Of a stretch of 64,000 nt of DNA, positions 19,702 through 48,205 are shown one piece after another. The stretch is taken from the NCBI GenBank assembly GCA_030055525.1, contig JASFYJ010000005.1, positions 53,429 through 117,428 of the forward strand. The letters run 5' to 3'. Positions within the stretch are counted from its first letter, which is position 1. Every line of letters begins with the position of its first letter. The notes below the pieces were generated by a model. The model was given only the letters and a program-made list of their open reading frames with translations. It was not told where the DNA came from and did not search any database. The stretch is from Archaeoglobales archaeon (GTDB lineage Archaea; Halobacteriota; Archaeoglobi; Archaeoglobales; Archaeoglobaceae). The position numbers and the translations under genes were made by a program.

Positions 19702-21840
19702 ATGGTGAAAAACATGAAGCTTATAAGTGAAATAGCATCGAAAGCGATTTCAGAAGGTAGAACGTACTTACTCGAACACGAAAGTAAAAAAATCCTTATG
19801 GAGTATGGTATTCATACTACTAGAGCTTTTTTAGCAAGAAAGGCTGATGAGGCTGTTGAAATAGCAAGAGAAATCGGATATCCTGTAGTTATGAAGGTTT
19901 TATCTCCAATGATAATTCACAAATCCGATGTTGGTGGTGTTAAACTAAACCTTGAAAACGATGAAGCTGTTAGAGCAGCTTACAAGGAAATCGAGTCAAA
20001 ATTCAAGGATAAGGGTATGATCGGAGTCTCTGTGCAAAAGATGGCAAAGCCGGGGATAGAATTAATTGTAGGAGTAACGATGGATGAAACTTTTGGTCAT
20101 GTACTGATGTTCGGCTTGGGCGGAGTTTTTGTTGAAGTTTTTAAAGATGTAAGCTTCAGAGCGATCCCAATAAGTGAAGATGATGCCGAAGAGATGATAA
20201 GGGAGATAAAAGGTTACTCTTTGCTGAAAGGTTACCGTAATTATTCTGCAGATTTACAGGCGATAAAGGACATTTTATTGAGAGTCTCGAAGATCGTAAG
20301 TGAAAATCCAATAATAAAGGAGATGGATTTGAACCCGGTGTTTGTATATCCTGAAGGTTATGTAGTTGTTGACGCAAGGATAATTCTTGATCCCAAGTTT
20401 TGTAAAATAAATGAAGGGAATTCTCGAAACATCGATCTCAAAGGACTCTTCTATCCGAAAAGCGTTGCAGTTATCGGAGCTTCAAATACACAGGGTAAGC
20501 TAGGCTGGAATGTATTTAGAAACCTCTTAACTCACGGATTTAGCGGAAAACTTTACCCTGTAAACCCAAATGTTGAAGAGGTACAGGGTGTTAGAGCTTA
20601 CAAGAGCATAAAAGATGTTCCAGAGAAAGTTGATGTTGCAATAGTTCTAGTGCCCGCAAAGCAGACTCCAAAGATAGTTGAGGAATGTTGTCAAGCCGGT
20701 GTGAAGTATATCATAGTCGAATCTGCAGGATTTTCTGAGCTTGGAGAAGAAGGAAAGACTCTTGAAATGCAGATGAAGGAATTAATAAAAAGGTATGGGT
20801 GTAGACTTGTAGGCCCAAATTGTGCTGGATTGATAAATACTCATAACGGATTCGTCGGATCTTTAGGGCTCCTTGGAGAGCTTAATAAGGGAAACATAGG
20901 ACTAATAGTCCAGGCAGGAGTCTATGCTGCGGGGTTTTTGTGGGGGCTCAGAAATATTATGGACTTCGGAATAATAGCGACAATAGGGAACAAGCTCGAT
21001 ATAAATGAGACTGACATGCTGGAAGCAATTGGTGCTGATGAGAACATAGAAGTTATAGGAATGTACTTGGAGGATGTAAAAGGCGGCAGGAGATTTATAG
21101 ATGTGGCAAGGAATATAACGAAAAAGAAACCAATCATAGTTTTAAAGACAGGTAGAACTGAGGAAGGAAAGAAGGCTGCGTCAACCCATACAGCCTCTTT
21201 AGCTGGAAATGACCAGATATATAGCTCGATTTTCAAGCAGGCGGGAATTATAAGAGCAAGAGATAATGAACATCTTTTTGCGTTGCTTAAAGCCTTCTCC
21301 AAACAACCTTTGCCAAAGAACGATGGAGTTCTTGTAATAACCTATGCTGGCTCTCTTGGTGTCGCTTCAGCAGATGCAATATCTCTTAATGGACTGAGAC
21401 TGGCGAAATTTTCGGAGGAGATAAAAGAAGAGATCAGAAGATTCATGCCGAGTTTTGTAGCAAGCTTTAACCCGATAGATCTTACTTTTGATCAAACCCC
21501 CGAACAGGTCAGAAAGATAATAGAGACAGCACTGAAATGCGATGATGTTGGAAGTATTTTACTCATTGTGCAAACAGAGAAGTTTGGAAGTTATGTTGAT
21601 ACTCTGAAGTCTATAGATTACAAGGGCATCCCTATCTTTGTGGTTGTTTTTGGTAAGGAGTTTATCATAGAGGATGTAATAAAACTTGAAAGATCCGGAA
21701 TACCAGTTTATACGACGCCTGAACAAGCTGTGGAAGTTATTGCGACCATGTATTATTACAAGAACAATATAATGCTCGCGGAAGAGGTTTTAAAGCAAAC
21801 TACATCTAAATCTGTGGAAAAGAAGGTTTTAGCTTTTTAA
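19702..21840 (+). CDS. acetate/acyl-CoA ligase (ADP-forming), fused beta(ATP-grasp)-alpha order
   Basis: N-terminal ATP-grasp (VVMKVLSPMIIHKSDVGGVKLNL), then CoA-binding domain (YPKSVAVIGAS) and catalytic His motif AASTHTASLAG. Confidence 0.9.
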   Translation: MVKNMKLISEIASKAISEGRTYLLEHESKKILMEYGIHTTRAFLARKADEAVEIAREIGYPVVMKVLSPMIIHKSDVGGVKLNLENDEAVRAAYKEIESKFKDKGMIGVSVQKMAKPGIELIVGVTMDETFGHVLMFGLGGVFVEVFKDVSFRAIPISEDDAEEMIREIKGYSLLKGYRNYSADLQAIKDILLRVSKIVSENPIIKEMDLNPVFVYPEGYVVVDARIILDPKFCKINEGNSRNIDLKGLFYPKSVAVIGASNTQGKLGWNVFRNLLTHGFSGKLYPVNPNVEEVQGVRAYKSIKDVPEKVDVAIVLVPAKQTPKIVEECCQAGVKYIIVESAGFSELGEEGKTLEMQMKELIKRYGCRLVGPNCAGLINTHNGFVGSLGLLGELNKGNIGLIVQAGVYAAGFLWGLRNIMDFGIIATIGNKLDINETDMLEAIGADENIEVIGMYLEDVKGGRRFIDVARNITKKKPIIVLKTGRTEEGKKAASTHTASLAGNDQIYSSIFKQAGIIRARDNEHLFALLKAFSKQPLPKNDGVLVITYAGSLGVASADAISLNGLRLAKFSEEIKEEIRRFMPSFVASFNPIDLTFDQTPEQVRKIIETALKCDDVGSILLIVQTEKFGSYVDTLKSIDYKGIPIFVVVFGKEFIIEDVIKLERSGIPVYTTPEQAVEVIATMYYYKNNIMLAEEVLKQTTSKSVEKKVLAF

Positions 21841-21907
21841 ATCTTATTTTTAAAGCATCTTTCGAACCATCCATTTTGGACTATTTTATACCGAAAGGTT
21901 AATCAAA

Positions 21908-24583
21908 TTGTTTTCAAAAATTTTTATCATGCGAGGTAAGCTATACAACATCCCACAGGAAATCACTCTGAAAGATGGTACAGTTATCTTTGTTCGTGAA
22001 GTCAGAAAAGAGGATTTGGAAGAGTTGAAGAAATTGTATTCTTCTCTTTCAAGGGAGAGTCTTTATTTAAGGTTCTTTGGGAAACCAAGTTCAAATTTTA
22101 TTGAAAAGTATGTTGAAAGAGCTGTAAATGTGGATAGGAAGAACTCCTTTGGAATCGTTGCCTTTTATGGCAACGATCTCGTAGCCCATTCAGAGTATTA
22201 TGCCACAAGCAGAGATTCTGCAGAAGTTGCATTCACGGTTTCAGATAATTTTCATGGTAGGGGTGTTGGAACAGCTCTATTAGGAGTGATGGCTGAAATA
22301 GCATGGAAAAATGGAATAAAAGAGTTCTATGCAATGGTTTTACCAGAAAATTATCAGATGATCAAAGTATTTCGAGATTCTGGTTTTCCAGTGAGAGTTA
22401 GGCCTGAAATCGGAGCATTAGTTGTGAGAATGCCGACTGCGATAACTGAAGAAGTTTTAGAGCATTTTGAACGTAGAGAGAAGTTAGCAATTATAAACGC
22501 TCTTCGTAGGTTTTTTTGTCCAAATACCATAGCAGTAATAGGAGCGTCAAAAGATAGAAAAAAAGTAGGTGGAAAACTTTTATATAATATTTTGGTCTAT
22601 GGTTATAACGGTACAGTTTATCCAGTAAACAAAAATTCAAAGTACAGCCAGTCGGTAAGATGTTATCCTTCGATTTCCGATGTTCCGGATGAGGTAGACT
22701 TAGCAATTGTGGCTGTACCCTTCTATGAGGTTCTTAATGTTGCAGAAGAATGTGGAAAAAAAGGTGTGAAAGCTCTGCTAGTAATAACATCTGGATTTGC
22801 AGAACTCGGTGGAGAAGGTAAGAACAGACAGGAAGAGCTTTTAAAGATCTGTAGAAAGTATGGAATGCGTTTAATAGGTCCAAATTGCATGGGGATCGTA
22901 AATACAGATCCAAATTTAAGATTAAATGCTACATTTGCTCCAAACCCTCCACAGAATGGTAGAATAGGGTTCGCATCGCAAAGTGGTGCGGTTGGATTGG
23001 CAGTGATGGATCACGCAAGCTCCTATGGACTGGGTCTCTCCTTCTTTGCATCTCTCGGCAACAGAGCAGACATATCGAGCAACGATCTCATAGAATACTG
23101 GGAGGAGGATCCGAGAACAGATTTGATTCTTCTTTATCTTGAATCCTTCGGTAATCCGAGAAAGTTTGCTAGGATAGCTAAAAGAGTGTCTAAAAAGAAG
23201 CCAATACTAGCTCTTGCTTCAGGTATAACCCCTGTTGGAACCAACACTGCCTCAATTATCGGGTCTCTGATTTCTTCTTCAGGTATCGTAGTAGAATCTT
23301 TCTTTAAACAGACGGGAATCATAAGAGCCGACACTCTGGATCAACTTTTTGCAATATCTTGCTTTTTACTGCATCAACCATTGCCAAGAGGCAGGAAGGT
23401 TTGTATCCTAACAAACGGTGGAGGTTATGGAGATATAACAGCTGACTGGTGTAAGAAGGTCGGTTTAAAGATACCGGAATTGTCTCAGGAAACTAAAATG
23501 AGGCTGTTACAGACTCTTCCACCAATTTCAAGTGTTCAAAATCCTGTAGATATGACAGCATCAGCTAATTTCGAAAATTACAGTGATGCTATAAAGATTG
23601 TAAGCAAAGATGAGAATGTCGATGCGATAGTAGTCATCTTTGTTCAGGCTGTAAGCATGGAGGAAACAAGTAGAGTAGTGGAAAGTGTTTTGGAAGCATC
23701 TAGATATGCAAATTCTTTAGGGAAGCCTGTAATATTTATATACGCTGGTACCGATCTTCAATGTCGTGTTCTTAGGAAGGAGGATTTAGCTGTTCCTGTC
23801 TACGTCGATCCAAGTTTAGCAGCAGAGGTTTTAAGTAAGGTTGCAGAATATTCAGAGTGGAAAATGAAGCCGAAAGAAGATACAAGAGAATTTGAAGTTA
23901 ACAGAGATAAGGCTGCAGCGATAATAGCAAAATCACTTGGAAAGAAAGAATGGTTGAACATTCTAGATTCTTTCGAACTTTTGAACTGTTACGGTATAAA
24001 AACACCAGATTACGTTTATTTAAAACCCGAAGAACTCAAAGATGAGAAGGCAATCGAAAAAGTCGAAAAATTGGGCGTTGTTAGTGTGAAGGCAGTTGCT
24101 GAAAAACCTTCATATGGAAGAGATCCAAGATTTTCAAAGAGTGGAGTTTATGGAGCTGAAGCAATAAGAGCTGCAAAGGAGATACTTCAAGAACTTAAGG
24201 AAGTAGATGGTTTCATATTCCAGAAAATTGTTCATGGAATTGAGATGTTCATCGGTGTTGTAGAAGATCAGAACTTTGGTCCCCTGATAGCTTGTGGTGC
24301 CGGAGGCGAGTTTGCAGAGTTGCTCAAAGACATTTCCGTTAAAGTTACTCCCATTACGTACTCTGAGGGACTAGAAATGGTAAAAAGTTTAAGGATCTAC
24401 CCTATGCTTGAAGGTTACAAAGGAAGAGAGGCTGTAAACATAGAATCCTTTGTGGAGACTATCTTGAGGATAAATATGCTGATAGAGGATTTCCCTGAAA
24501 TAGTTGAAGTTGAATGCAACCCTGTAGTTTTAGATAAAAGCTCTGCAGTTGTTTTCGATGCAAGTGTAAGGTTGCGAGTATAA
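21908..24583 (+). CDS. GNAT acetyltransferase fused to an acyl-CoA synthetase (NDP-forming)-like protein; Pat-like candidate
   Basis: N-terminal GNAT (VSDNFHGRGVGTALLGVMAEIA), CoA-binding domain (CPNTIAVIGASKDRKKVGG), C-terminal ATP-grasp. Confidence 0.85.
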   Translation: MFSKIFIMRGKLYNIPQEITLKDGTVIFVREVRKEDLEELKKLYSSLSRESLYLRFFGKPSSNFIEKYVERAVNVDRKNSFGIVAFYGNDLVAHSEYYATSRDSAEVAFTVSDNFHGRGVGTALLGVMAEIAWKNGIKEFYAMVLPENYQMIKVFRDSGFPVRVRPEIGALVVRMPTAITEEVLEHFERREKLAIINALRRFFCPNTIAVIGASKDRKKVGGKLLYNILVYGYNGTVYPVNKNSKYSQSVRCYPSISDVPDEVDLAIVAVPFYEVLNVAEECGKKGVKALLVITSGFAELGGEGKNRQEELLKICRKYGMRLIGPNCMGIVNTDPNLRLNATFAPNPPQNGRIGFASQSGAVGLAVMDHASSYGLGLSFFASLGNRADISSNDLIEYWEEDPRTDLILLYLESFGNPRKFARIAKRVSKKKPILALASGITPVGTNTASIIGSLISSSGIVVESFFKQTGIIRADTLDQLFAISCFLLHQPLPRGRKVCILTNGGGYGDITADWCKKVGLKIPELSQETKMRLLQTLPPISSVQNPVDMTASANFENYSDAIKIVSKDENVDAIVVIFVQAVSMEETSRVVESVLEASRYANSLGKPVIFIYAGTDLQCRVLRKEDLAVPVYVDPSLAAEVLSKVAEYSEWKMKPKEDTREFEVNRDKAAAIIAKSLGKKEWLNILDSFELLNCYGIKTPDYVYLKPEELKDEKAIEKVEKLGVVSVKAVAEKPSYGRDPRFSKSGVYGAEAIRAAKEILQELKEVDGFIFQKIVHGIEMFIGVVEDQNFGPLIACGAGGEFAELLKDISVKVTPITYSEGLEMVKSLRIYPMLEGYKGREAVNIESFVETILRINMLIEDFPEIVEVECNPVVLDKSSAVVFDASVRLRV

Positions 24584-24626: not shown

Positions 24627-24902
24627 TTGGTGGTAGTGGATTATCTGAAGGAGATGCAAAAACTTTGGGAAAATACTTTGAAGATGCAGACAAACCTAAT
24701 TGAGATGATAACCATCGCTTTAAACAACGTGATAAAGCTGAACCCCATTCAAGGAAACACAGCGATTTTTAGGGCTAAAGTTCAGAGCGGTGGGAGGATA
24801 AGCATACCTGAAGCAGATAGAATAGCCCTCGATTTAAAGGAGGGAGATGTTGTTAAGGTAATTGTAATAAAAGAGTCGGGAGGTGAGAGAAGTGGAGTAT
24901 AA
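24627..24902 (+). CDS. AbrB/SpoVT-domain protein of PHA locus (PhaR-like)
   Basis: Amphipathic N-terminal helix, then AKVQSGGRISIPEADRIALDLKEGDVVKVIVI AbrB fold; start codon uncertain (TTG/GTG). Confidence 0.7.
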   Translation: MVVVDYLKEMQKLWENTLKMQTNLIEMITIALNNVIKLNPIQGNTAIFRAKVQSGGRISIPEADRIALDLKEGDVVKVIVIKESGGERSGV

Positions 24903-25206
24903 GGAGTTTATGGATGCAGTAAGAAGTATGTATAAGATGGGTTTTGCAGTGGGTAAATCTATGCTGGACATGGTAAAAATAGCCATGGACAGCTACATGA
25001 GTATGTACGAGATGTACATGAGGCAGTTTATACCGTCTGAAAGCTACGAAAACGTGAAGAAAACGATAGACCTCTACACGGAATCTCAAACGAAGGTCTT
25101 TGAAAACTTCAAGAAGTTGCTTGAACAGTTTGAGAAACAGCAGGATGAGATATTTGCAAGAATGATAGAGTTTGGCGAGAAGGCAACACCTAAGAAGAAA
25201 GAGTGA
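24883..25206 (+). CDS. phasin-like / PHA-granule-associated helical protein
   Basis: Small all-helical protein (FAVGKSMLDMVKIAMDSYMSMYEMYMRQF ... ENFKKLLEQFEKQQDEIFARM); overlaps the AbrB gene; located in PHA locus. Confidence 0.55.
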   Translation: MREVEYKEFMDAVRSMYKMGFAVGKSMLDMVKIAMDSYMSMYEMYMRQFIPSESYENVKKTIDLYTESQTKVFENFKKLLEQFEKQQDEIFARMIEFGEKATPKKKE

Positions 25207-25209
25207 CAA

Positions 25210-25782
25210 CTATTTTTTTATTTTTGCTATAATTTCGAAGTCGAAAAGGGCCTTTGAGAGATGAACTTCTTCAAATTCTTTGCTCATAAAGTTTGCCACA
25301 AAACGTGGAGATGGAAATCCCCAAATAGCTTTTGAAACTCTTTCAGCGTAAGATTCACTTACATACCTTCTCAAAGCATCTAAAACGAATTTTTTTATAT
25401 TTGATGGCATTTCTGAGTTTATATCTCTTATTGCTATTGTTCCCTCGTTTTTCAGTACTCTTTTAGCCTCGTAAATTGCCCTAAGGCCTGTATCATGTAG
25501 CGAAAAAGAGAATATAACCAAATCAAAAGACCTATCTTTGAAAGGTAAAAAGTTTGCATCAGCAACGATTGCTCTTGAAATTTTGCACATTTCAACGTTT
25601 TTGTCTATACCGACAATTTCTGCATCTTTAAAAATTTTTGATAGTTCATTAGCTAAGATACCGCTGCCACAACCCACGTCGAGTATCTTTTTTGCATTTA
25701 ATGAGCTTTTTAATTTTTTTGCAAAATAAATATAACTGAGCCTGAACTTTTCAGCCCAAGTCGCATACCTTTCTTCTTCCAT
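25210..25782 (-). CDS. class I SAM-dependent methyltransferase
   Basis: ILDVGCGSGILANELSKIF, IVGIDKNVEMCKISR, FDLVIFSFSLHD. Confidence 0.85.
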   Translation of the reverse strand: MEEERYATWAEKFRLSYIYFAKKLKSSLNAKKILDVGCGSGILANELSKIFKDAEIVGIDKNVEMCKISRAIVADANFLPFKDRSFDLVIFSFSLHDTGLRAIYEAKRVLKNEGTIAIRDINSEMPSNIKKFVLDALRRYVSESYAERVSKAIWGFPSPRFVANFMSKEFEEVHLSKALFDFEIIAKIKK

Positions 25783-25815
25783 AAATTTTTTATATTCGCA
25801 ATAACTAAAAAGCTT

Positions 25816-26355
25816 TTGATGATGGAAGATATTTTTAAGACCTTTAAAACGTTTGAAGAGTTTCTAATGAAGTTGATAGACCCCAAGACCTATCTTGGTG
25901 AGCTTAGCGAAGAGGAAATTAAAGATTCGATCGAAAAATACTACAGTGGAATATTCAGTATCTTTCAGCTGAACTTCGATTATTCAACAAAGATCTGGCA
26001 AAAGATTTTTGCGGGCGATGTAGAAAACGTTCTTGCAACTTATCTCGAGTACCTTTCAAAGCTTGAAGATGTAGTTAATAAGATGAGCGACAACGTTCTA
26101 TACTCAGCCTACATAAATGCTTTAAATAGTAACTATCTGAGATTTTTAACGACTCTACAAAATATAAACGGAGCTATTTTGCACAATTTGGGATTGGTTT
26201 CGAGAAAGGATATAGTGGCTCTTGCAGAGGCTTACGTAGACCTGAAGGGTGATATAAAAAAGGAGACAAGAGTTGTTAGAAAAGACATCGCAGAGATAAA
26301 GAACATGCTGGTTGAGTTGCAAAAAGAAATGGTTGGTAAAGAAAAGAAAGATTGA
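25816..26355 (+). CDS. phaE: class III PHA synthase subunit PhaE-like (haloarchaeal-type)
   Basis: Helical protein ending NGAILHNLGLVSRKDIVALAEAYVDLKGDIKKETRVVRKDIAEIKNML, similar to haloarchaeal PhaE C-terminus; immediately precedes phaC. Confidence 0.7.
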   Translation: MMMEDIFKTFKTFEEFLMKLIDPKTYLGELSEEEIKDSIEKYYSGIFSIFQLNFDYSTKIWQKIFAGDVENVLATYLEYLSKLEDVVNKMSDNVLYSAYINALNSNYLRFLTTLQNINGAILHNLGLVSRKDIVALAEAYVDLKGDIKKETRVVRKDIAEIKNMLVELQKEMVGKEKKD

Positions 26356-26365
26356 GGTGTTAAAA

Positions 26366-27475
26366 ATGATTCCTTACCTGATTTCCGAGTCTTTAAGGAA
26401 CATCAGAAGATCTTTAAAGCTTTCTGAATGGCTTTTGGAGCACGATTTTTTACCTTGGAGCGAAGATAGGCCTTATCTAATACCTAACGTGAAGGTTGGT
26501 CAAACTCCGAGGGTAGAACTTTATAAAGATGACGGAGTGAAGCTTTATAGGTACCTGCCGACAACAGAAAAGCAGTACGAAACTCCATTGCTTATAGTCT
26601 ATGCACTCATCAACAAACCATACATCTTGGATCTTTACCCTGAAAGAAGTGTAATTAAGAAGTTTTTAGATGCTGGATTCGATGTTTATCTGATAAAGTG
26701 GGGAGATGCGACGATTGCAGATCAATTTGGTCTTTCAGAGTACGTGGATATCTTCATGTACGACTTCATAGATTACCTTAAGGATTACGCGAAAGTTGAC
26801 AAGATATCTATTCTCGGTTACTGTATGGGTGGAGGGATGTCAGCTATTTACACGTCTCTTTATCCAGAAAACGTCAGAAATCTACTGCTTTTAGCATCTA
26901 CTTTATATTTTGGTAAGGATGTTGGTGGACTTGTTACGCTTAGCGATAAAAGATTTTTTGATCCCGAAGAAGTTACAAACGTATACGGCTACGTTCCAGC
27001 TTGGTTTTTGGGGGAGAGGTACAAGCTTCTCAGACCCCTCGAAAACTACGTTACAAAATATGTCAGCATGTTCTTGAATGCCGAAAACGAAGATTTTCTC
27101 GATCTTTTCTTTAGAATGGAGAGATGGATTCACGATGGAGTTAACGTGGCACCATATGCTTATGCAGAATACGTGAAACTGATGTATCAAGAAAATGCGC
27201 TATGTGAAGGTAAATTGTATATCAACGGAAAAAGGGCAGATCCTAAAAAAATATCCATGCCGGTGGCAGCAATTGTTGGTAAAAAGGATCATTTAGCTCC
27301 ACCAAAGAACACTTTAGGATTTTTGGATTATGTATCAAGCAACGAGAAGGCTATATTTGAAGCCGATGTCGGTCACGTGGGGCTTGTGGTTTCAAGTAAA
27401 GCGATGAAGATGTGGGATGAGGTTGCTGATTGGCTTGCGAAGAGGAGTGGCAAAAAGATAGTAAGAGAGATTTGA
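26366..27475 (+). CDS. phaC: class III poly(R)-hydroxyalkanoate synthase, PhaC subunit
   Basis: Lipase-box-like ISILGYCMGGGMSAIY (nucleophile Cys), GKKDHLAPP (Asp), DVGHVGLVVS (His); ATG at 26366 preferred. Confidence 0.88.
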   Translation: MIPYLISESLRNIRRSLKLSEWLLEHDFLPWSEDRPYLIPNVKVGQTPRVELYKDDGVKLYRYLPTTEKQYETPLLIVYALINKPYILDLYPERSVIKKFLDAGFDVYLIKWGDATIADQFGLSEYVDIFMYDFIDYLKDYAKVDKISILGYCMGGGMSAIYTSLYPENVRNLLLLASTLYFGKDVGGLVTLSDKRFFDPEEVTNVYGYVPAWFLGERYKLLRPLENYVTKYVSMFLNAENEDFLDLFFRMERWIHDGVNVAPYAYAEYVKLMYQENALCEGKLYINGKRADPKKISMPVAAIVGKKDHLAPPKNTLGFLDYVSSNEKAIFEADVGHVGLVVSSKAMKMWDEVADWLAKRSGKKIVREI

Positions 27476-27922
27476 TCACCATATCAAAATTTTTACCCAG
27501 CCTTCAGCAACAAGTCTATCTTCAACAGCACATTTGATGTTTAACTTGTATCTATTTTTCTCTTTTTCAACCACAGTCCCTTGGATTCTAACGAGATCTC
27601 CGATCTTCACGGGAGCTGTATATTTGAAATATGTTTCTAGTAATACAACGATCCCTGGAATTCTTGCTACCGCTGCTGAAACCAAGCTTGTAGTAAGCAT
27701 ACCCTGAGCAACTCTTCCTCCAAACCTCGTCTTCTTTGCAAACTCTTCTTCAAAGTGTATTGGGTTAAAATCTCCAGAAATCAGTCCGAAAAGATAAACG
27801 TCTGCTTCGGTTATCCTTTTCTCGTAAGTTATCTCGTAACCCACATCCAGCTGGCCACTGAATTTTTCAAATTTTTTAACTTCTCCACCCAATTTTCTGT
27901 AAACTTCCTCTAACTCCATCAT
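27476..27922 (-). CDS. phaJ: MaoC-family (R)-specific enoyl-CoA hydratase
   Basis: Hotdog fold motif GDFNPIHFEEEFAKKTRFGGRVAQGMLTTSLV; start 27922 supported by GGGAGGAG SD-like sequence. Confidence 0.8.
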   Translation of the reverse strand: MMELEEVYRKLGGEVKKFEKFSGQLDVGYEITYEKRITEADVYLFGLISGDFNPIHFEEEFAKKTRFGGRVAQGMLTTSLVSAAVARIPGIVVLLETYFKYTAPVKIGDLVRIQGTVVEKEKNRYKLNIKCAVEDRLVAEGWVKILIW

Positions 27923-27935
27923 TTTATCTCCTCCC

Positions 27936-28910
27936 TTAAGACCTTTCAATAATCCAACGAATTGCTTCTGGCCAAATTTTTGTATGGGAAGTTTTGCTTA
28001 CACTCAAACCTATATGTCCCTTCTCTGATAGAAGCATCTTCTTATCTTTTGATGGTATTTTTTCGAAAAACGGTATTACTGACTCTGGTGGTGTTATATG
28101 ATCCTTTTCAGCCGCCAAAACGAGTACGGGCATATCTATTTTGTTGATATCTACTGGCATTCCTTTCACATCGTATTGGTTATTCATTATCTCGTTTCTA
28201 TGGTACCATCTGACAATATACTCCTCGAAAACATCTCCTGCAACGGATGGAGAATCGAAAATCCAGTGGTCCATAAAAAAGAAGTCTTTTACTGATTTTT
28301 CGTCGTCGAAACTATTTATTAGCGATTGATATTTGCCAACTATTAATCTTACTGGGTCTACAAGTAAGAAGGCGATATTCAAGAGATCCCCAGTAGCGTT
28401 GAACAATGCTCTTGAAATCTTTTTGGGATCTATACTTTTAGCCCAAATCGCTAGAGTGTTCTTTGTATCGAAGTTTATTGGAGGTGTTTGAATTATAAGG
28501 TTCTTGATCTTTTCAGGATACAAAGCTGAGTAGATTACTGCAAGTGTAGAACCTAAGCAGTAACCGTGTAATGTCAATTTATCTACTTTTCGCTCTTTTC
28601 TTACAAAATCTACGCAGAAATCAAGATAGTCTATATAATCAGATATTTTTAGATGCCTATCAGCAAAACTCGGATAACCCCAGTCTATCATCCAAACATC
28701 AAGCCCTGCTTCAAGCATCTTCTTTATTACGCTTACATCTTCATGTAAGTCTAGGATAACTGGTCTGTTGATAAAGGCATAGCATATCAGAACTGGAGTT
28801 CTGTAATTGGGATTCCCTCTGTAGTGTAGCAACTTAAAAATCCAATCCTCGTGAACAACTTCGTAATCACAAAATCCAGGCTTTATATTTTTTATCTTTT
28901 CGGCTATCAT
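27936..28910 (-). CDS. second PhaC-type synthase
   Basis: LTLHGYCLGSTLAVIYSALYPE (Cys), AAEKDHITPPESV (Asp), EKGHIGLSVS (His). Confidence 0.82.
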   Translation of the reverse strand: MIAEKIKNIKPGFCDYEVVHEDWIFKLLHYRGNPNYRTPVLICYAFINRPVILDLHEDVSVIKKMLEAGLDVWMIDWGYPSFADRHLKISDYIDYLDFCVDFVRKERKVDKLTLHGYCLGSTLAVIYSALYPEKIKNLIIQTPPINFDTKNTLAIWAKSIDPKKISRALFNATGDLLNIAFLLVDPVRLIVGKYQSLINSFDDEKSVKDFFFMDHWIFDSPSVAGDVFEEYIVRWYHRNEIMNNQYDVKGMPVDINKIDMPVLVLAAEKDHITPPESVIPFFEKIPSKDKKMLLSEKGHIGLSVSKTSHTKIWPEAIRWIIERS

Positions 28911-29827
28911 TTCTGGACACCCTTCTCAATAGAATCCAACTTTTTTTCAAGCTCATTAATTCGTCTCTTTAGATCAAAAATTCTTTTAAAAGCTTCATCC
29001 ATCTGAGATACAGTTGCAAACGGATTCAGTGGGTTATTCTCTGCGATCCCTTCGTAGAATCTTCTGAAGTAATATAGGTAATCCATTAGACTTTCGACCA
29101 TATTTTTCTGAATCTCAACATATTTCTTCGAACTCAGTAAGTTTTCAAACTCTTTAACCTCCTCGTTCAAGAAGGTGTTCAAAAAATCGAAGAAATTCGA
29201 AAATTTTTTGCTGTTTGCAATCTCTATGAACCTCTCTGCAGCAGTTACGAAGGCTTGTTTTCTCAAATCTCGGTAACTTCTAAAAAACTCTGAAAAATTT
29301 CTCCAACTGTTAATTGCATTTTCCAGGTATTCAAAAACTTTCTTGGGTAGTATTAACGGATATTCATGCAATAGATCAGCTTTCATAAATTCAGAACTGC
29401 AGGATTTTATTAAGTCTGCATAATGATCAAGAAATCTATCAAGGACACTCTTAACTGGCTCAGAAGTTGTAGAGGTAAAGTAAATTTCGGATAGAAGTTT
29501 TAAATGTGAGAAAAACGAACTTAAAAACTCGCAGTAAGTATCTAAAAACTCGTTTTGAGACTCCAAGATTCTCATAAGATCAACAAAAGGAAAAAGATAG
29601 TTTAACTGCCTAATACCAAACACTGAAATTTCGATGGGGCGATAAAAGAACTTGGAGAATTCTTCATATATTTTCTCAAAACTTTCATCGTAACGTATAG
29701 CTCCAGATTGATGTTTTTCCCAAAGATCTTCAAGTATTTTCCTAATCTCGATATTCCTCAAAAGAAGCTCGAAGGACTCCTTGGGAGCGAACTTAAAAAG
29801 TTCTATTGCCTCATCTTGGCTAATCAT
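28907..29827 (-). CDS. second PhaE-type subunit (bacterial-like class III)
   Basis: Helical; C-terminus NPFATVSQMDEAFKRIFDLKRRINELEKKLDSIEKG resembles the PhaE C-terminal segment; overlaps phaC2 by 4 nt. Confidence 0.68.
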   Translation of the reverse strand: MISQDEAIELFKFAPKESFELLLRNIEIRKILEDLWEKHQSGAIRYDESFEKIYEEFSKFFYRPIEISVFGIRQLNYLFPFVDLMRILESQNEFLDTYCEFLSSFFSHLKLLSEIYFTSTTSEPVKSVLDRFLDHYADLIKSCSSEFMKADLLHEYPLILPKKVFEYLENAINSWRNFSEFFRSYRDLRKQAFVTAAERFIEIANSKKFSNFFDFLNTFLNEEVKEFENLLSSKKYVEIQKNMVESLMDYLYYFRRFYEGIAENNPLNPFATVSQMDEAFKRIFDLKRRINELEKKLDSIEKGVQK

Positions 29828-29931
29828 AATTACTTCTACAGAATTAACCTATATATACTTTTCTACTTTTTAGTTGTATTACGACTGTATAACCTCAGAA
29901 GAAGTTAAATTTCACAAACTCAACGGAGTTC

Positions 29932-36001: not shown

Positions 36002-37258
36002 TTAGACGTACGGATTCTCGATTACCGTCGCCCCTCCCTGTCCTCCCCCACCGCAAAGCGTTGCAACGCCGTATTTTGCGTTCTCAATGTTCAAGATCCT
36101 TGCGAGAGTTCCCGTTATCCTTATACCGCTAGCAGCAAGTGGATGACCGATAGCTATGCCACCACCTTTTATGTTGACCCTCTCCGGATCTATATTAAGT
36201 TTCTTGATCGCAAACAGCGTAACAACTGCAAAAGCTTCATTTATCTCCCAGTAGTCTATGTCCTTTACATCTAACTTGGCCATCTTCAATGCTTTTTTGC
36301 TTGCCGGAACTGGGCCTTCACCCATTACACTCGGATCTACACCAGCCCAACCTATAGAGACTATCCTAGCCATCGGCTCTAAACCGTACTCTTTCATCTT
36401 CTTCTTACTCATGAGCATTATAGCTGTAGCTCCAGCATTCAGCGGTGAAGCGTTGCCAGCTGTGATCACACCTCCTGGTTTAAATGCAGGTGGAAGCTTT
36501 TCAACAGCTTCAAGTGATGTATCCGCTCTTATGGACTGATCTATGTCTATAACCTTTCTACTACCGTCGGCCAACTCTACTTCGACCGGCATTATCTCTC
36601 CTTTCCTCTTTGTTGGATATCCAGCTCCGTTATGGAAATAACCTTCAGAAACGGCCTTTGCAGCCAACTTATGACTCCTTACGGCCCACTCATCTAGATC
36701 TTTCTTTGTCCATTTTAGTTCATCTTTATATTTTTCGAATAGCTTCTCTGCTGTAAGACCCATACTCATTGCCGTCATCAAGTCGTACTTTGCGATCAGA
36801 TCTTGCCTCGACATGAGGGTTGGGGAAACCCCCATGCATGGATTGAATTCCAGCTGCATTGGAAGGTGAGTCATGTGTTCAATGCCGCATGCTATTGTTA
36901 TGTCAGAGTATCCAAGCATGACTTCCATTGCACACTGATGCATAGCAGACATTCCGGAGATACAAACCCTTTCAACACCCTGAGCAGGAACCTCCATGGG
37001 GAGATCGGCTAGGATGTTAACTATTCTGCCACCAAAAAGCCAGTTCTCCTTCATCTGCATTGTGCATCCTGTTATTATATCTCCTATCTCTTTTGGATCT
37101 ATACCTGTTCTGTTGATCATCTCCTTGACAAGCATTGAAGCTACAGTGGGCATGTCTATTTTATTGAAAACGTCCGTTTCCGGCTTGTTTGGTCTGCTCC
37201 TTGAGAACGGCGATCTTAGATAGTCAACGATATATACTTCCTCCATTTCCATCACCAA
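36002..37258 (-). CDS. acetyl-CoA C-acyltransferase (thiolase)
   Basis: ERVCISGMSAMHQCAMEV, GGIAIGHPLAASGIR, ATLCGGGGQGGATVIE. Confidence 0.93.
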   Translation of the reverse strand: MVMEMEEVYIVDYLRSPFSRSRPNKPETDVFNKIDMPTVASMLVKEMINRTGIDPKEIGDIITGCTMQMKENWLFGGRIVNILADLPMEVPAQGVERVCISGMSAMHQCAMEVMLGYSDITIACGIEHMTHLPMQLEFNPCMGVSPTLMSRQDLIAKYDLMTAMSMGLTAEKLFEKYKDELKWTKKDLDEWAVRSHKLAAKAVSEGYFHNGAGYPTKRKGEIMPVEVELADGSRKVIDIDQSIRADTSLEAVEKLPPAFKPGGVITAGNASPLNAGATAIMLMSKKKMKEYGLEPMARIVSIGWAGVDPSVMGEGPVPASKKALKMAKLDVKDIDYWEINEAFAVVTLFAIKKLNIDPERVNIKGGGIAIGHPLAASGIRITGTLARILNIENAKYGVATLCGGGGQGGATVIENPYV

Positions 37259-37270
37259 AAAATAAAAAAT

Positions 37271-38464
37271 TTACATAAACGGATGCTTCCTTACATTTCC
37301 AAGTTTTGATGGTAGTTTGCCAAGCAAGCTTCTTGCAATTATCTCAAGTTCAACTTCTCTTGTACCTTCGTAGATTTCGAGTATTCTCGCATCTCTGAAC
37401 ATTCTCGCAACTGCCTGCTCATTCATGTAACCATATCCGCCGTATATCTGGACAGCTTCATGAACTATCTCTTGAGCTACGTGGGCACAGTAGTACTTCG
37501 CCATCGCCGTTAATCCGGGATCGGGCATACCCATCTTATCTTGATAGTAAGCGGCCTGATAAGCAAGTAATCGAGCACATTCAAGTTTGGTTCTCATCTT
37601 TGCAAGTTTTTCCTGTGTAACTTGGAAATCTATAAGCTTCTGTTCAAACAGTTCTCTATTCTTTGCATAGTTGAATGCGAGCTCAAATGCTCCTTGCGAT
37701 AAACCTACGGCTTGGAAAGCGACGGGTATTCTTGTTACGTTGAAGAACATCATCGTTTGCAAGAATCCCTGCCCTTCAGTGCCAACGAGGTTCTCTTTAG
37801 GAACTTTGACATTCTTGAAAACGACTTCAGCTGTGTCGCTTGCCCTTATACCTAACTTGTTCTTCAACTTCTTAGCCTGCAAGCCCGGAGTATCTTTTTC
37901 GACGATGAATACACTCATTCCATGGTGTCTTTTTGGAGGATTTGGATCCGTTCTAGCTAGGACTATGTAATAATCGGCGATGGTTCCGTTGGTTATGAAC
38001 ATCTTTGTACCATTTATAACGTACTCATCACCCACCTTGTCTGCTCTCGTTTTAATGCCTGCAACATCGCTTCCGGCTTGCGGTTCAGTGTAGCAAGCGC
38101 AACAGATGGCTTTACCTTTTGCAAGCGGTGGCAGATACTTTTTCTTCTGTTCAATTGTTCCGAACATCATTATTTGCTCTGCTCCAAATGTACTAGACAG
38201 TATCTGCCCTAAACCTCCATCTACTCTCCAGAATTCCTCAACAACCAGACAGGAGTCTAAGATTCCGAGTCCCTGACCACCAAACTCCTCTGGGAAGCTC
38301 ATTCCTATAAATCCGAGTTCAGCAGCCTTCTTCCATAACTCAAAAGGAAATTTTTCTTCCCTATCGCACTCTTCTGCATAGTTCGGGAACTCTTTTTCGG
38401 CAAACTCCCTTGCGGCCTCTTTTATCGCTTTTTGTTCATCCGTAAGGATAAATTCTGCCAACAT
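37271..38464 (-). CDS. acyl-CoA dehydrogenase
   Basis: CCACYTEPQAGSDVAGIKTRA, NGTKMFITNG, VQIYGGYGYMNEQAVARMFRDARILEIYEGTREVE. Confidence 0.95.
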   Translation of the reverse strand: MLAEFILTDEQKAIKEAAREFAEKEFPNYAEECDREEKFPFELWKKAAELGFIGMSFPEEFGGQGLGILDSCLVVEEFWRVDGGLGQILSSTFGAEQIMMFGTIEQKKKYLPPLAKGKAICCACYTEPQAGSDVAGIKTRADKVGDEYVINGTKMFITNGTIADYYIVLARTDPNPPKRHHGMSVFIVEKDTPGLQAKKLKNKLGIRASDTAEVVFKNVKVPKENLVGTEGQGFLQTMMFFNVTRIPVAFQAVGLSQGAFELAFNYAKNRELFEQKLIDFQVTQEKLAKMRTKLECARLLAYQAAYYQDKMGMPDPGLTAMAKYYCAHVAQEIVHEAVQIYGGYGYMNEQAVARMFRDARILEIYEGTREVELEIIARSLLGKLPSKLGNVRKHPFM

Positions 38465-43017: not shown

Positions 43018-44574
43018 ATGGTCGAAAGAAGGAGAATAGAGATTCCAAGCGGTGTAAAATTGAAGGAAAGCGTTGGTGAAGAGACAAAATTCCCATTCGA
43101 GATTTCTCCGATGTACGAAGGAGAAAGAATCAGAAAAGACGACATGTTTGTAGAGCTTGGCGGTCCAACGCAACCGAAATTCGAGCTTGTCATGGCTTTG
43201 CCAGTAGATCAAGTTGTTGACATGAAAGTCACTCTAGTTGGCCCAGATTTGGATGAAATGGAGCAAGGGAAGGCTTATCCTTATGCGATGGTCTACTATA
43301 TAGCGGGTTCAAAAATAGAGACTGATCTTGAGCCCGTTATTGAGAGAAGAAACCACGACTTTCAGAATTACATCGAAGGTTACATGCATCTAAATCAGAG
43401 ATATGACATTTGGATCAGAATAGGGAAGAATGCAATGAAGAAAGGATTAAAGAGTCTTATTCAGATTGCAAAAGCTACAATGATGCTTTACAAGAACGAA
43501 CTACCTTTCATAGAGAAAATTGAAGCTGTTTACATTACAGATAAAGCTTTAGTTGAGAAGCTACTTAAAGAAGTTGCAATGCCGATTTATGAAGAGAGAG
43601 ACAGGAGAGTTGAGACTTTGCATGATGAAGATGTTTCGGAATTCTACTCGTGCACACTCTGCCAGAGTTTTGCCCCAACAAACGTCTGCATCGTAAGTCC
43701 AGACAGGCCATCGCTTTGTGGGGCTATTACGTGGTTCGATGGTAGAGCTGCTGCAAAAGTTGATCCGGAGGGACCGAATAGAGCTGTTCCTAAAGGTGAA
43801 GTTTTAGATCCTATAGGCGGTGAGTACAGTGGTGTCAACGAGTTTGCAAAGCAAGAAAGTGGAGGAGAATATGAAAGAATAAAGCTGCACAGCTTCTTTG
43901 AGTATCCACACACAAGTTGCGGATGTTTTGAAGTTATCGGATTCTACATGCCAGAAGTTGATGGAATAGGATGGGTGAATAGAGGTTATCCAGACCCCGC
44001 ACCAAACGGTTTAACTTTCTCAACGATGGCTGGGCAAACTGGTGGTGGAAAACAGGTTGCTGGATTCTTAGGAGTGGGCATGGCCTACTTCAGAAGTAAG
44101 AAGTTCATCCAAGCTGATGGTGGGTGGTATAGAACTGTTTGGATGCCGAAGGCATTAAAGGAGAAGCTTGAGAAGTATATACCAGCAGATATAAAGGACA
44201 AGATAGCAACAGAAGAGCAAGCAAGGACGCTTGATGAGCTCAAAGAGTTTTTAAAGAAAGTAGACCATCCAGTTGTTAAAGGAGTAGTTAGACCAGTGGA
44301 TGGAAAGAAGATAACCAACGGCTGGGTAGAAGAAGTTGCGGAAGTTGCAAAAGAGGAAGAAAAGCCTGCAGAAGCTGCACCAGCTACTACGCATGCTGTT
44401 ACACAGCCAGCACAGCAGGCGGTTCAGCAGTTTAGCATGCCGTTAGTACAGCTTCCACAGTTGCAGCTACCAGCTGCATCATCAGCACCAGCTGGAATCA
44501 AGATAATAATAAAGGACGCAAAGATAACAATCGACAAAGTCATTGTAAGGAAGGCTGAAAAAGGTGGGAAGTAA
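43018..44574 (+). CDS. cdhC: acetyl-CoA decarbonylase/synthase complex beta subunit
   Basis: SCTLCQSFAPTNVCIVSPDRPSLCGAITWFDGRAAAKVDPEGPN; Pro/Ala linker then IKIIIKDAKITIDKVIVRKAEKGGK tail; GAGGTGAG SD-like sequence. Confidence 0.97.
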   Translation: MVERRRIEIPSGVKLKESVGEETKFPFEISPMYEGERIRKDDMFVELGGPTQPKFELVMALPVDQVVDMKVTLVGPDLDEMEQGKAYPYAMVYYIAGSKIETDLEPVIERRNHDFQNYIEGYMHLNQRYDIWIRIGKNAMKKGLKSLIQIAKATMMLYKNELPFIEKIEAVYITDKALVEKLLKEVAMPIYEERDRRVETLHDEDVSEFYSCTLCQSFAPTNVCIVSPDRPSLCGAITWFDGRAAAKVDPEGPNRAVPKGEVLDPIGGEYSGVNEFAKQESGGEYERIKLHSFFEYPHTSCGCFEVIGFYMPEVDGIGWVNRGYPDPAPNGLTFSTMAGQTGGGKQVAGFLGVGMAYFRSKKFIQADGGWYRTVWMPKALKEKLEKYIPADIKDKIATEEQARTLDELKEFLKKVDHPVVKGVVRPVDGKKITNGWVEEVAEVAKEEEKPAEAAPATTHAVTQPAQQAVQQFSMPLVQLPQLQLPAASSAPAGIKIIIKDAKITIDKVIVRKAEKGGK

Positions 44575-44658
44575 ATGGACGAACCTAAAAAAGTAAAGCT
44601 CATATTAAAGGGTGCAGAAATCCATATTCCAGAACTGATTATTGAGGAAGAAGAATGA
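44575..44658 (+). CDS. 27-aa micro-ORF resembling the CdhC C-terminal tail
   Basis: MDEPKKVKLILKGAEIHIPELIIEEEE*; ATG follows directly on the cdhC TAA and its TGA overlaps the next ATG (ATGA). Confidence 0.6.
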   Translation: MDEPKKVKLILKGAEIHIPELIIEEEE

Positions 44659-45428
44659 CCATCATAGCAGTTGCTGGCAAGGGTGGAACGGGAAAAACTC
44701 TCGTTTCAGCCCTCCTCGTCCATTTTATTTCTAAACACACAAGCAGACTTTTGGCGGTAGATGCAGATCCAGATAGTAACCTACCTGAAGCTCTTGGGGT
44801 CTCTAAGCTTGTAAGAAAAACTATCGGTGAGATAAGGGAAGCTTTCCAGACAAGTAGAGATGAAATGGGTTCAATGAACAAAGAACAATGGATTGAAGGA
44901 AAAATATATGGAGAAGTTGTTTGTGAGTGCGAAAACTATGATCTAATAGTCATGGGGCGGCCTGAAGGTGAAGGCTGCTATTGCTTTGCTAATTCTTTGC
45001 TAAGAGGAGTTTTAAGAAAGATGATGAAGCATTATGACTACATAGTTGTTGACAGTGAAGCGGGCTTGGAGCATTTCAGTAGAAAAACGATCGACAGTGC
45101 AGATTATGTAATAGTTGTAACGGACGCATCCATGAAGGGTTTAACGACTGCTAAGAGGATAAAGCAGTTGATGAAAGAGTTAAAGCTAGGTGTTAAAGAA
45201 ATTTTCCTGATAGCAAATAGAGTTTATAGCCAAGAAGCTGAAAGAAACATAAGAAAATTTGCCGACGAGGAGGGAATAAAGTTACTCGAGGTTTTACCAT
45301 TCGACGAAGAGGTTGCAAAAATAGACATGATGGGCTTGCCAGTAACTATGCTAAATGAAAGCTCTGAAGTTTATAAGAGGATGAAAAAAGTTTCCGATTT
45401 CTTTCTTAAGTTGAAAGCCACCATTTAG
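44655..45428 (+). CDS. CooC-like CODH accessory ATPase (nickel insertion)
   Basis: IIAVAGKGGTGKTLVSALLVHF, VDADPDSNLPEALG, VDSEAGLEHFSRKTID. Confidence 0.92.
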   Translation: MTIIAVAGKGGTGKTLVSALLVHFISKHTSRLLAVDADPDSNLPEALGVSKLVRKTIGEIREAFQTSRDEMGSMNKEQWIEGKIYGEVVCECENYDLIVMGRPEGEGCYCFANSLLRGVLRKMMKHYDYIVVDSEAGLEHFSRKTIDSADYVIVVTDASMKGLTTAKRIKQLMKELKLGVKEIFLIANRVYSQEAERNIRKFADEEGIKLLEVLPFDEEVAKIDMMGLPVTMLNESSEVYKRMKKVSDFFLKLKATI

Positions 45429-45430
45429 AG

Positions 45431-46789
45431 GTGATTAAGTTGGCAAAAAGATTTACACTTCAAGAGTTTTTGGAAACTCTTAAAAAATACAACGTGGAAG
45501 AGTTAGAAGGTGTGAAGATTGAAGGTGACCTTGAAATAGAGTTTGAGGGCTCTTCAATAGACCTTTCTGCAGTTGCACCGCTTTATGCAATCATTTCAGA
45601 CCTTTCGAACTTTCTGTACCATGCTAATATGGCTTTAAGTTACATGCAGAGGTTATCTTCAGTTCTTGGAATTCCAATGCCATTTGCAGTACAGCCAGCT
45701 GTATCAGCTGCACCTCCAGCTCCTAAAGTTGAAGAAAAACTCAAATTGCCCGAAAAGCTGTTAGAAGCTAAGTTTACTCCTTACAAAGTAGAATATCCGG
45801 GAAAGGTTGAGGAAGTCGTCCTTGGGGCTACAAGAGCAGATGGAGGCACGAGAGATTATACTATAAAGCTTGGCGGAGAAAAAAGCTTAGCTTTCTATAT
45901 GTTCGATTCTCCACAGCCGAATTTGCCTGCGATAGCGATAGATGTGTTTGATCGCCCACCAGCGTTGGCAAAAGCTGTTAAGATGCACTATGAAGATGTT
46001 TTAACAAACCCTGCAGAATGGGCGAGGAAGTGTGTTAAGAAGTTTGGAGCAGATTTGGTTACGATACACTTGGTGAGTACAGATCCTTTGCTTGAGAATA
46101 CACCTGCAAGAGAAGCTGCAAAAGTTGTTGAAGAAGTTTTACAGGCAGTTAAATGTCCAATAATCGTTGGTGGTAGTGGTAATAAAGAGAAGGATCCAGA
46201 GGTGCTTGAAAAAGCTGCTGAGGTTGCAGAAGGGGAAAGAATATTGCTAGCTTCAGCAACTCTTGACATGGATTGGGAAAGAATAGCGAACGCAGCAAAG
46301 AAGTATGGTCACGTTGTGCTCAGCTGGACACAGATGGATATAAACAATCAGAAGACGCTAAACAGGTACTTGCTTAAAAGAGCAAACATGCCAAGGAACA
46401 GCATTGTAATGGATCCAACAACTGCCGCGCTTGGATATGGGTTGGATTATGCATTTACGAACATGGAAAGAATAAGGTTGAGTGCACTTAAAGGTGATGA
46501 AGATCTCAACTTCCCGATCTCAAGTGGTACTACGAATGCTTGGGGTGCTAGAGAATCTTGGATGAGCGAATCTCCACTCGAAGGAGATACACCTTGGGGG
46601 CCGAGAGAGCTCAGAGGACCTATTTGGGAGATAATAACTGGTCTTACTCTATCGCTTGCAGGAGTTGATCTTTTCATGATGATGCACCCAACGGCTGTTG
46701 CAACTCTTAAGGAGATATTCAACACACTTGGAGGTAAAAATACAGCTAAAATTGATGATCCAAATGCTTGGCTTAAAATGGAGGTGTGA
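45431..46789 (+). CDS. cdhD: acetyl-CoA decarbonylase/synthase complex delta subunit
   Basis: VEELEGVKIEGDLEIEFEGSS, TIHLVSTDPLLENTPAREAAKVVEEVLQAV, MDPTTAALGYGLDYAFTNMERIRLSAL. Confidence 0.96.
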   Translation: MIKLAKRFTLQEFLETLKKYNVEELEGVKIEGDLEIEFEGSSIDLSAVAPLYAIISDLSNFLYHANMALSYMQRLSSVLGIPMPFAVQPAVSAAPPAPKVEEKLKLPEKLLEAKFTPYKVEYPGKVEEVVLGATRADGGTRDYTIKLGGEKSLAFYMFDSPQPNLPAIAIDVFDRPPALAKAVKMHYEDVLTNPAEWARKCVKKFGADLVTIHLVSTDPLLENTPAREAAKVVEEVLQAVKCPIIVGGSGNKEKDPEVLEKAAEVAEGERILLASATLDMDWERIANAAKKYGHVVLSWTQMDINNQKTLNRYLLKRANMPRNSIVMDPTTAALGYGLDYAFTNMERIRLSALKGDEDLNFPISSGTTNAWGARESWMSESPLEGDTPWGPRELRGPIWEIITGLTLSLAGVDLFMMMHPTAVATLKEIFNTLGGKNTAKIDDPNAWLKMEV

Positions 46790-46792
46790 CGA

Positions 46793-48205
46793 ATGAAGGT
46801 AAAAAGTCCGCTGGAAGTTTATAACCTTCTTCCAAGAACAAACTGCAAAGAATGTGGTTACGATACCTGCATGAGTTTTGCTGCACATATACTCGACAGA
46901 AGTGCGAAAGTTATACAGTGTAAGCCTTTAGTTGAACAGTCGGAGAAAGATCCAAAAGCTAAGAGTAAATTAGAGAAACTTCTAGACATAACAGCTCCAG
47001 AGATAGCAGAAATTGTAATAGGTAGCGGGGATTCTGCAGTAAAAGTTGGGGGTGAAGAAGTTCTCCATAGGCATGAGCTTACTTTCTTCAATCCAACAGC
47101 TTTCTTCTACGATGTTTGGGATACTCTGGATGAGAAAAAGATTGAAGAAAGATGTGAATGGGTTGCTAAGTACAGAAAATTCTACGTTGGAAAATATTTG
47201 ACTTTGGATGGTATTGCGGTTAGGTGCACCTCAAACGATCCAAGCAAGTTCGGGAATGTTGTAAAGAAGGTGGCAAGCTACGGAAAACCGATGGTTTTGG
47301 TAACTCTTAATCCAGACTGCATGAAGGCTGCACTTGAGGAGGTTGCAGATAAAAAACCTCTGATATATGCGGCAACAGAAGAAAACTGGAGAGAATTTCT
47401 TAGACTAGCACTTGAATATAAAGTACCTGTTGTTGTAAGATCGAGCGATCTTGACAAACTTAAAAGTTTGGCGGTAACTTTCAAGCAGGCAGGAGTAAAG
47501 GAGATAGTTTTAGACCCAGTAACTGAACCGGTAGGAGAAGGGCTGAAGAGAACCTTCGAAAGGGTAATTCAGATCAGGAGGACAGCTATAGAAGGAGGAG
47601 ATAAAGATGTGGCATATCCAATAATGGTTACACCGATTTCAGCACATCTGATAAACGCAGACGATGTAACTAAAGAATATTGGGAAGCGGTCATTGGCGG
47701 GATGTTCGTAGTTAAGTACGCTGATATAATGATATTCCATACTCTGAAGCAGCACGTGGTTATGCCGACTTTAACGCTTCGAGCTAACATCTACACCGAT
47801 CCGCGCACACCAGTACAAGTTGAGCCAGGTTTAAGGCCTATAAACGATCCAAAACCGGAAGATCCTGTTTTCCTTACAACAAACTTTGCTTTAACTTATT
47901 ATACTGTTGAAAGTGATCTAACAAGTGCAAAGATAAGAGGATGGCTGCTTGTGCTCAACACAGAGGGCATTTGTGTAGAAGCTTCGGTTGCTGGAGGTAA
48001 ATTCACGGCAAGTGGTGTAAAGCAGTTAATTGAGCAGACAAAGATAGCTGAAAAGGTAAATCATAAGTATCTAGTAATTCCAGGACTTGCAGCTAGATTG
48101 CAAGGAGCTATAGAAGATGAGACAGGCTGGAAAGTACTCGTGGGACCTATAGATTCTGGAAGAATCAAGGGCTGGCTCGAAAAGAACTGGCCACCTAAAA
48201 AATAA
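46793..48205 (+). CDS. cdhE: acetyl-CoA decarbonylase/synthase complex gamma subunit (corrinoid Fe-S)
   Basis: KSPLEVYNLLPRTNCKECGYDTCMSFAAHILDR Fe-S motif; RHELTFFNPTAFFYDVWDT. Confidence 0.96.
   Translation: MKVKSPLEVYNLLPRTNCKECGYDTCMSFAAHILDRSAKVIQCKPLVEQSEKDPKAKSKLEKLLDITAPEIAEIVIGSGDSAVKVGGEEVLHRHELTFFNPTAFFYDVWDTLDEKKIEERCEWVAKYRKFYVGKYLTLDGIAVRCTSNDPSKFGNVVKKVASYGKPMVLVTLNPDCMKAALEEVADKKPLIYAATEENWREFLRLALEYKVPVVVRSSDLDKLKSLAVTFKQAGVKEIVLDPVTEPVGEGLKRTFERVIQIRRTAIEGGDKDVAYPIMVTPISAHLINADDVTKEYWEAVIGGMFVVKYADIMIFHTLKQHVVMPTLTLRANIYTDPRTPVQVEPGLRPINDPKPEDPVFLTTNFALTYYTVESDLTSAKIRGWLLVLNTEGICVEASVAGGKFTASGVKQLIEQTKIAEKVNHKYLVIPGLAARLQGAIEDETGWKVLVGPIDSGRIKGWLEKNWPPKK

Follow-up and report, generated by a model that had tools for sequence, protein, structure and literature searches.

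A locus at positions 24627-29827 of the window, which covers 64 kb of a 1.56 Mb archaeal genome (completeness 98.5%), probably directs the synthesis of a polyhydroxyalkanoate (PHA) through two class III PHA synthase systems, in each of which a catalytic subunit (PhaC) is paired with a PhaE subunit. Archaeal PHA storage is established in the haloarchaea and has been discussed for the Thaumarchaeota and Methanoperedens. The host here, presumed in the initial annotation to be a hyperthermophilic archaeon, belongs to the class Archaeoglobi. Judged from its genes the locus is genuine, its two PHA synthase systems are conserved, and the host is one in which they were not expected. PhaC1 and its partner E1 were assigned to the archaeal phaJ-R-P-E-C type, and PhaC2 and E2 to a distinct pair read together with a MaoC-type hydratase. 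The locus opens with plus-strand genes for an AbrB-domain protein and a phasin-like protein, which overlap; a minus-strand methyltransferase gene, E1 and PhaC1 (plus strand) and then MaoC, PhaC2 and E2 (minus strand) complete it (Table 1). Read on their own strand, the last three run E2-PhaC2-MaoC with overlapping ends, the E2 stop overlapping the PhaC2 start. All seven features listed initially were recovered as open reading frames (ORFs) at the same place and in the same orientation; the methyltransferase gene had been overlooked.

TIGR01836, the class III PhaC model, was by far the best-matching model for both catalytic subunits (PhaC1, E = 1.6e-90, 304 bits; PhaC2, E = 2.2e-93, 313 bits), with scores below its curated cut-off of 365 bits. 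PHA synthases were the top matches in the Protein Data Bank (PDB), and both subunits were placed within the class III PhaC tree. A Cys-Asp-His triad was invariant among 16 Archaeoglobi PhaCs (C153, D308 and H337 in PhaC1; C118, D270 and H299 in PhaC2), and the lipase-like box of PhaC1 (GYCMGG) fits the pattern G-x-C-x-G-G.

The phylogeny separated the two synthases. PhaC1 was sister to haloarchaeal PhaC (support 100/97-98), in a clade that includes PhaC3 of Haloferax mediterranei (L138), an enzyme that polymerises poly(3-hydroxybutyrate-co-3-hydroxyvalerate) (PHBV) when expressed with PhaE (PMC2939530). PhaC2 was sister to the PhaC of a family of Halobacteriota that bear methyl-coenzyme M reductase (MCR) (family f9; support 100/98). 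Holding PhaC1 and PhaC2 together was rejected by the approximately unbiased (AU) test (p = 0.014). Given this test and the separate sister groups, the locus appears to hold two anciently distinct synthase systems and not one set duplicated; a recent duplication of one PhaE-PhaC pair was rejected on the tree, the AU test and the sister groups. A single clade of PhaC1, PhaC2 and the haloarchaeal sequences was not rejected (AU p = 0.23), in a tree whose branches are long and whose deeper order is unsettled.

E2 was assigned to PhaE on homology together with its position beside PhaC. Existing PhaE models matched it weakly (TIGR01834, 7e-4; PF09712, 0.003). In most of 77 foreign loci, a hidden Markov model (HMM) of Archaeoglobi E2 matched the ORF that immediately precedes PhaC (down to E = 4e-15). 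It also matched haloarchaeal PhaE (7.5e-7) and the PhaE of family f9 (113 bits, 2e-34). As direct HMM matches of E1 to PhaE were not significant, E1 was compared profile to profile, with reversed and shuffled controls. Its profile aligned with the bacterial PhaE profile at E = 8.6e-7 (hhalign). Among the controls, the reversed profile gave 0.011, the phasin 4e-4 and ten column-shuffled profiles worse values. On its own, the short Methanoperedens PhaE set aligned only weakly with E1 (E = 0.008). E1 is predicted to be all-helical, and in models of moderate confidence its four last helices follow the same run as the C-terminal half of E2. E1 was classed as PhaE-like from this profile homology and from its position, the PhaC1 ATG lying 10 bp past the E1 stop. 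PDB searches with E1 and E2 returned chance coiled coils only.

Among the accessory proteins, MaoC matched PF01575 (E = 2e-24) and the MaoC of haloarchaeal PHA clusters (E = 1e-31), and it carries the (R)-hydratase motif FGLISGDFNPIHFEEEFA. An AbrB domain was recognised by a weak match (TIGR01439, E = 1.6e-6); both in the N-terminal helix and in the core, the protein corresponds to the AbrB proteins of haloarchaeal phaJRPEC clusters (E = 5e-20), and the same architecture was found beside a Nitrososphaerales phaC. The phasin-like protein, which likely starts at the ATG at 24892, is conserved and helical. Its gene occurred in 16/19 PhaC-bearing genomes of the class and in 0/40 of the others (Fisher test, p = 9e-12, uncorrected for relatedness, with presence covarying within four genera); in four genomes (G046, G051, G053, G054) it lies on a contig other than that of PhaC. 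Position, helical nature, conservation and co-occurrence with PhaC make the protein a candidate phasin. In two species the unlinked gene sits ~7 kb from mcrA (G046:C112, G053:C1).

We further examined the occurrence of the locus across the Archaeoglobi. The host belongs to the genus of Archaeoglobi archaeon WYZ-LMO2, and Archaeoglobales archaeon isolates SJ3.Bin61 and JZ-3_D_bin_138 fall in the same genus group. At least one full PhaC was present in all ten genomes of the genus and in 19/59 genomes of the class; any match was found in 24/59, a patchy distribution. The whole gene set recurs in identical arrangement in G049 (L046) and, slightly rearranged (MaoC, AbrB, phasin, methyltransferase, E1, C1, C2, E2), in Ferroglobus placidus (L051), which argues that the locus is not a chance assembly. 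Other members of the host genus carry E1-C1 and E2-C2 at separate sites, Geoglobus ahangari has a single synthase pair of the PhaC2 type, and PhaC2 without a linked PhaC1 was found at L033, L037, L039, L047 and L052, with phasin, AbrB or MaoC adjoining. All reading frames of the locus are intact in the host lineage, and dN/dS values of 0.05-0.09 for E1, C1, E2 and C2 (G051 versus G053, a moderately diverged pair) indicated purifying selection. In two Archaeoglobus genomes PhaC2 was reduced to its C-terminal end beside an intact MaoC gene (residues 253-324 at G001 L034:6378-7054; residues 282-324 at G005 L022:1561-2153), and neither PhaE nor phasin was found at these loci, which were identified from their sequence as a decayed PHA locus. 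As only remnants occur there, this best-studied genus would not show PHA.

A full mcrBDCGA operon, with all five genes in one place (L149), is present in the host genome, and McrA was also found in four further genomes of the host genus. Cultivated relatives, described as Candidatus Methanoglobus, convert methylamines to methane at 64-75 C, and Candidatus M. hypatiae expresses genes for beta-oxidation and carbon monoxide dehydrogenase/acetyl-CoA synthase (CODH/ACS) (PMC10945360). The idea that an MCR-bearing archaeon with PHA genes is a unique case was rejected, as PhaC is present in ten further genomes of the phylum that bear MCR.

Monomer supply appears to run through the hydratase. No acetoacetyl-CoA reductase (PhaB/FabG-type short-chain dehydrogenase/reductase, SDR) was detected anywhere in the host genome with two models, both of which were positive in 13/14 control genomes; no FabG/adh_short_C2-type short-chain dehydrogenase at all was detected in the host, which is unusual compared with the controls. 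Four 3-hydroxyacyl-CoA dehydrogenase genes were identified, whose products, as members of their family, would be S-specific. Since PhaB/FabG was not detected while 3-hydroxyacyl-CoA dehydrogenases, thiolase and acyl-CoA dehydrogenase are present, the (R)-monomer is most likely formed by MaoC hydration of beta-oxidation-type enoyl-CoA intermediates. The pair of thiolase and acyl-CoA dehydrogenase genes further along the window is a likely source of precursors, and the two ADP-forming acyl-CoA synthetases encoded just before the locus may activate its substrates. The initial description of the locus as complete was too strong, given that no PhaB/FabG-type SDR was detected in the genome, that no depolymerase was recognised and that the nearest thiolase gene is ~6 kb away.

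The scheme that we infer for polymerisation, monomer type, granules and regulation is as follows. A 2-enoyl-CoA, drawn from the beta-oxidation of fatty acids or made from acetyl-CoA by the same steps in reverse (thiolase, 3-hydroxyacyl-CoA dehydrogenase and crotonase), would be hydrated by MaoC to (R)-3-hydroxyacyl-CoA. PhaC, which its PhaE partner would keep in an active complex, would polymerise these monomers through the catalytic cysteine; the phasin-like protein would coat the polymer, and the AbrB protein would hold down its own operon as long as polymer is absent. The polymer most likely serves to store carbon and reducing power. If so, a storage polymer would be part of the physiology of Archaeoglobi, including lineages now known as methanogens, and the two systems would be a source of heat-stable PHA synthases. 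The cultivated F. placidus and G. ahangari and the enriched Candidatus Methanoglobus make the question directly testable.

Comparison with known systems placed PhaC1 closest to the haloarchaeal phaJ-R-P-E-C cluster of Haloferax and Haladaptatus, a class III subtype. The two share an AbrB regulator of the same architecture, a small helical protein, a short PhaE (~20 kDa), PhaCs of sister lineages, a MaoC hydratase and gene order; in the haloarchaeal records L137 and L139, MaoC is divergent from AbrB, the small protein, PhaE and PhaC, an order described as phaJ-phaR-phaP-phaE-phaC (PMC10948481). PHBV synthesis in H. mediterranei needs both PhaE and PhaC (PMC2939530). Unlike the haloarchaeal cluster, our locus has a PhaC1 without a long C-terminal extension, a methyltransferase gene inside and a second, distantly related PhaE-PhaC pair attached, in a thermophilic, MCR-bearing host without a PhaB-type reductase. 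By analogy, the PhaC1 system would resemble the haloarchaeal subtype in its working, but it is not a full member because PhaC1 lacks the extension. Phylogeny, profile comparison and synteny upheld what was proposed at the outset, both the assignment to class III PhaC/PhaE and the analogy with haloarchaeal clusters.

PhaC2 and E2 have their closest relative in the PhaE-PhaC of family f9 (G064, G091, G098), which differs in having a second, divergent PhaC in tandem and an intact lipase box, with MaoC, AbrB and phasin not recognised alongside. At the f9 loci (L150, L151, L152, L153) the two tandem PhaCs follow a long PhaE-like gene, and the second PhaC sits on a very long branch with triad and box retained; G064 and G098 also encode a second, divergent alpha subunit of MCR or alkyl-coenzyme M reductase (ACR). 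Candidatus Methanoperedens likewise combines a class III PhaE-PhaC synthase with MCR, but its PhaC lies on another branch, nearer bacteria, and its short PhaE differs in the N-terminal part. In bacteria, class III loci (Desulfobacterales, Syntrophaceae and others) share the PhaE-PhaC pair and, in many cases, a nearby MaoC; they differ in PhaC branch, and no AbrB/PhaR of this type was recognised in them.

Several observations weigh against PHA synthesis by the locus. Both PhaCs score under the TIGR01836 cut-off. The PhaC2 box (GYCLGS) departs from G-x-C-x-G-G: the second glycine of the pair is absent from 8/9 Archaeoglobi PhaC2 sequences, the early-branching G022 retaining it, whereas it is kept in PhaC1, haloarchaea, family f9 and, wherever the box could be located, all sequences from bacteria and Methanoperedens. 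The PhaC2 of H. mediterranei is inactive despite an intact triad and has a substitution at the same box position, but that protein is also truncated (PMC2939530). Loss of the glycine makes activity of our PhaC2 less certain. PhaC1, for its part, ends 32 residues past the catalytic His (369 aa, versus 422-566 aa in haloarchaeal PhaCs), and the C-terminal extension is indispensable in H. mediterranei (PMC2939530). E1 had no relevant family match in addition to its non-significant direct HMM matches, the phasin-like protein matched no recognised phasin in family models or the haloarchaeal comparison, and searches for a depolymerase recognised none. Finally, a search of the open PubMed Central (PMC) literature turned up no report of PHA from any member of the Archaeoglobi, in line with the earlier remark that no well-characterised PHA production is known from Archaeoglobales, and the papers describing the genomes of F. 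placidus and G. ahangari do not mention PHA.

That PhaC1 and E1 alone form the polymerase, with PhaC2 repurposed (for example as a polymer-mobilising hydrolase or thiolase) or kept as a low-activity accessory, is unlikely: loss of the box glycine in nearly all Archaeoglobi PhaC2 and its retention in the other lineages sampled, together with the failure to recognise another depolymerase, would suit such a role, but several genomes have PhaC2 with no PhaC1 linked to it, so that it seems able to serve as sole synthase there, and it retains a PhaE of its own and is under strong purifying selection. We consider it unlikely, too, that all parts of a bolder proposal hold at once, namely that a thermophilic MCR-encoding archaeon, with methylotrophic methanogens among its relatives, stores carbon and electrons as PHA fed by the hydratase alone, as the want of an acetoacetyl-CoA reductase would require, with PhaC1 polymerising and the altered-box PhaC2 acting otherwise on the same polymer, for instance in mobilisation.

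The product might instead be, as raised in the initial annotation, a short complexed polyhydroxybutyrate (PHB), a membrane- or protein-bound oligomer and not a storage granule. Sequence does not fix chain length, and the want of a recognised depolymerase would suit a non-storage use. We regard this as quite improbable, however, as phasin-like and PhaR-type AbrB genes accompany the synthases and the phasin-like gene occurs together with PhaC throughout the class. The granules of H. mediterranei have PhaP as their chief protein, and PhaR, a repressor there, also takes part in forming them (PMC10948481). It is very unlikely that the PhaC-like proteins are alpha/beta-hydrolases with other CoA thioesters or lipids as substrates, as sub-cut-off scores and long tree branches might suggest, when both fall inside the tree of class III PhaCs, both have a PhaE partner, a PhaJ-like hydratase is near and a phasin co-occurs. 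Least credible is a decaying remnant or passing transfer without present function; the intact frames, the purifying selection in the host lineage and the presence of PhaC throughout the genus stand against it, the patchy occurrence in the class and the real decay in two Archaeoglobus genomes notwithstanding.

Table 1 Features of the locus and of its surroundings in the window.
Feature	Position	Strand	Basis
Two ADP-forming acyl-CoA synthetase genes, second with GNAT domain	19702..24583	+	Just upstream of locus
PhaR-like protein, 91 aa: ~45-residue N-terminal helix and SpoVT/AbrB DNA-binding domain	24627..24902	+	AbrB domain match, haloarchaeal homology
Phasin-like helical protein, 107 aa from first start codon	24883..25206	+	Conservation, co-occurrence; no family match
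S-adenosylmethionine (SAM)-dependent methyltransferase	25210..25782	-	Methyltransf_11, E = 4e-16
E1, short PhaE-like subunit, 179 aa	25816..26355	+	Conserved C-terminal motif, hhalign to PhaE, helical model
PhaC1, class III catalytic subunit, haloarchaeal lineage, 369 aa	26366..27475	+	TIGR01836, tree, triad
MaoC-type (R)-specific enoyl-CoA hydratase, PhaJ-like	27476..27949	-	PF01575, motif, haloarchaeal MaoC homology
PhaC2, class III catalytic subunit of a second, separate lineage, 324 aa	27936..28910	-	TIGR01836, tree
E2, long PhaE subunit, 306 aa	28907..29827	-	Weak PhaE models, own HMM against foreign loci
Acetyl-CoA C-acetyltransferase (thiolase) and acyl-CoA dehydrogenase pair, outside locus proper	36002..38464	-	NF005033, 627 bits, over cut-off

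Scans of the window for tRNAs and Rfam families gave no matches. Outside the locus, the CODH/ACS subunit genes cdhC, cdhD and cdhE, with an ATPase-like gene between, were found at 43018-48205. Homologues of the methyltransferase adjoin PhaC genes at L032, L038, L046 and L051. A TATA-like AAAAGTATATATAGG was seen by eye ~30 bp before the E2 start (minus strand, 29827-29870), and its position suggests that the E2-PhaC2-MaoC transcript may be leaderless.

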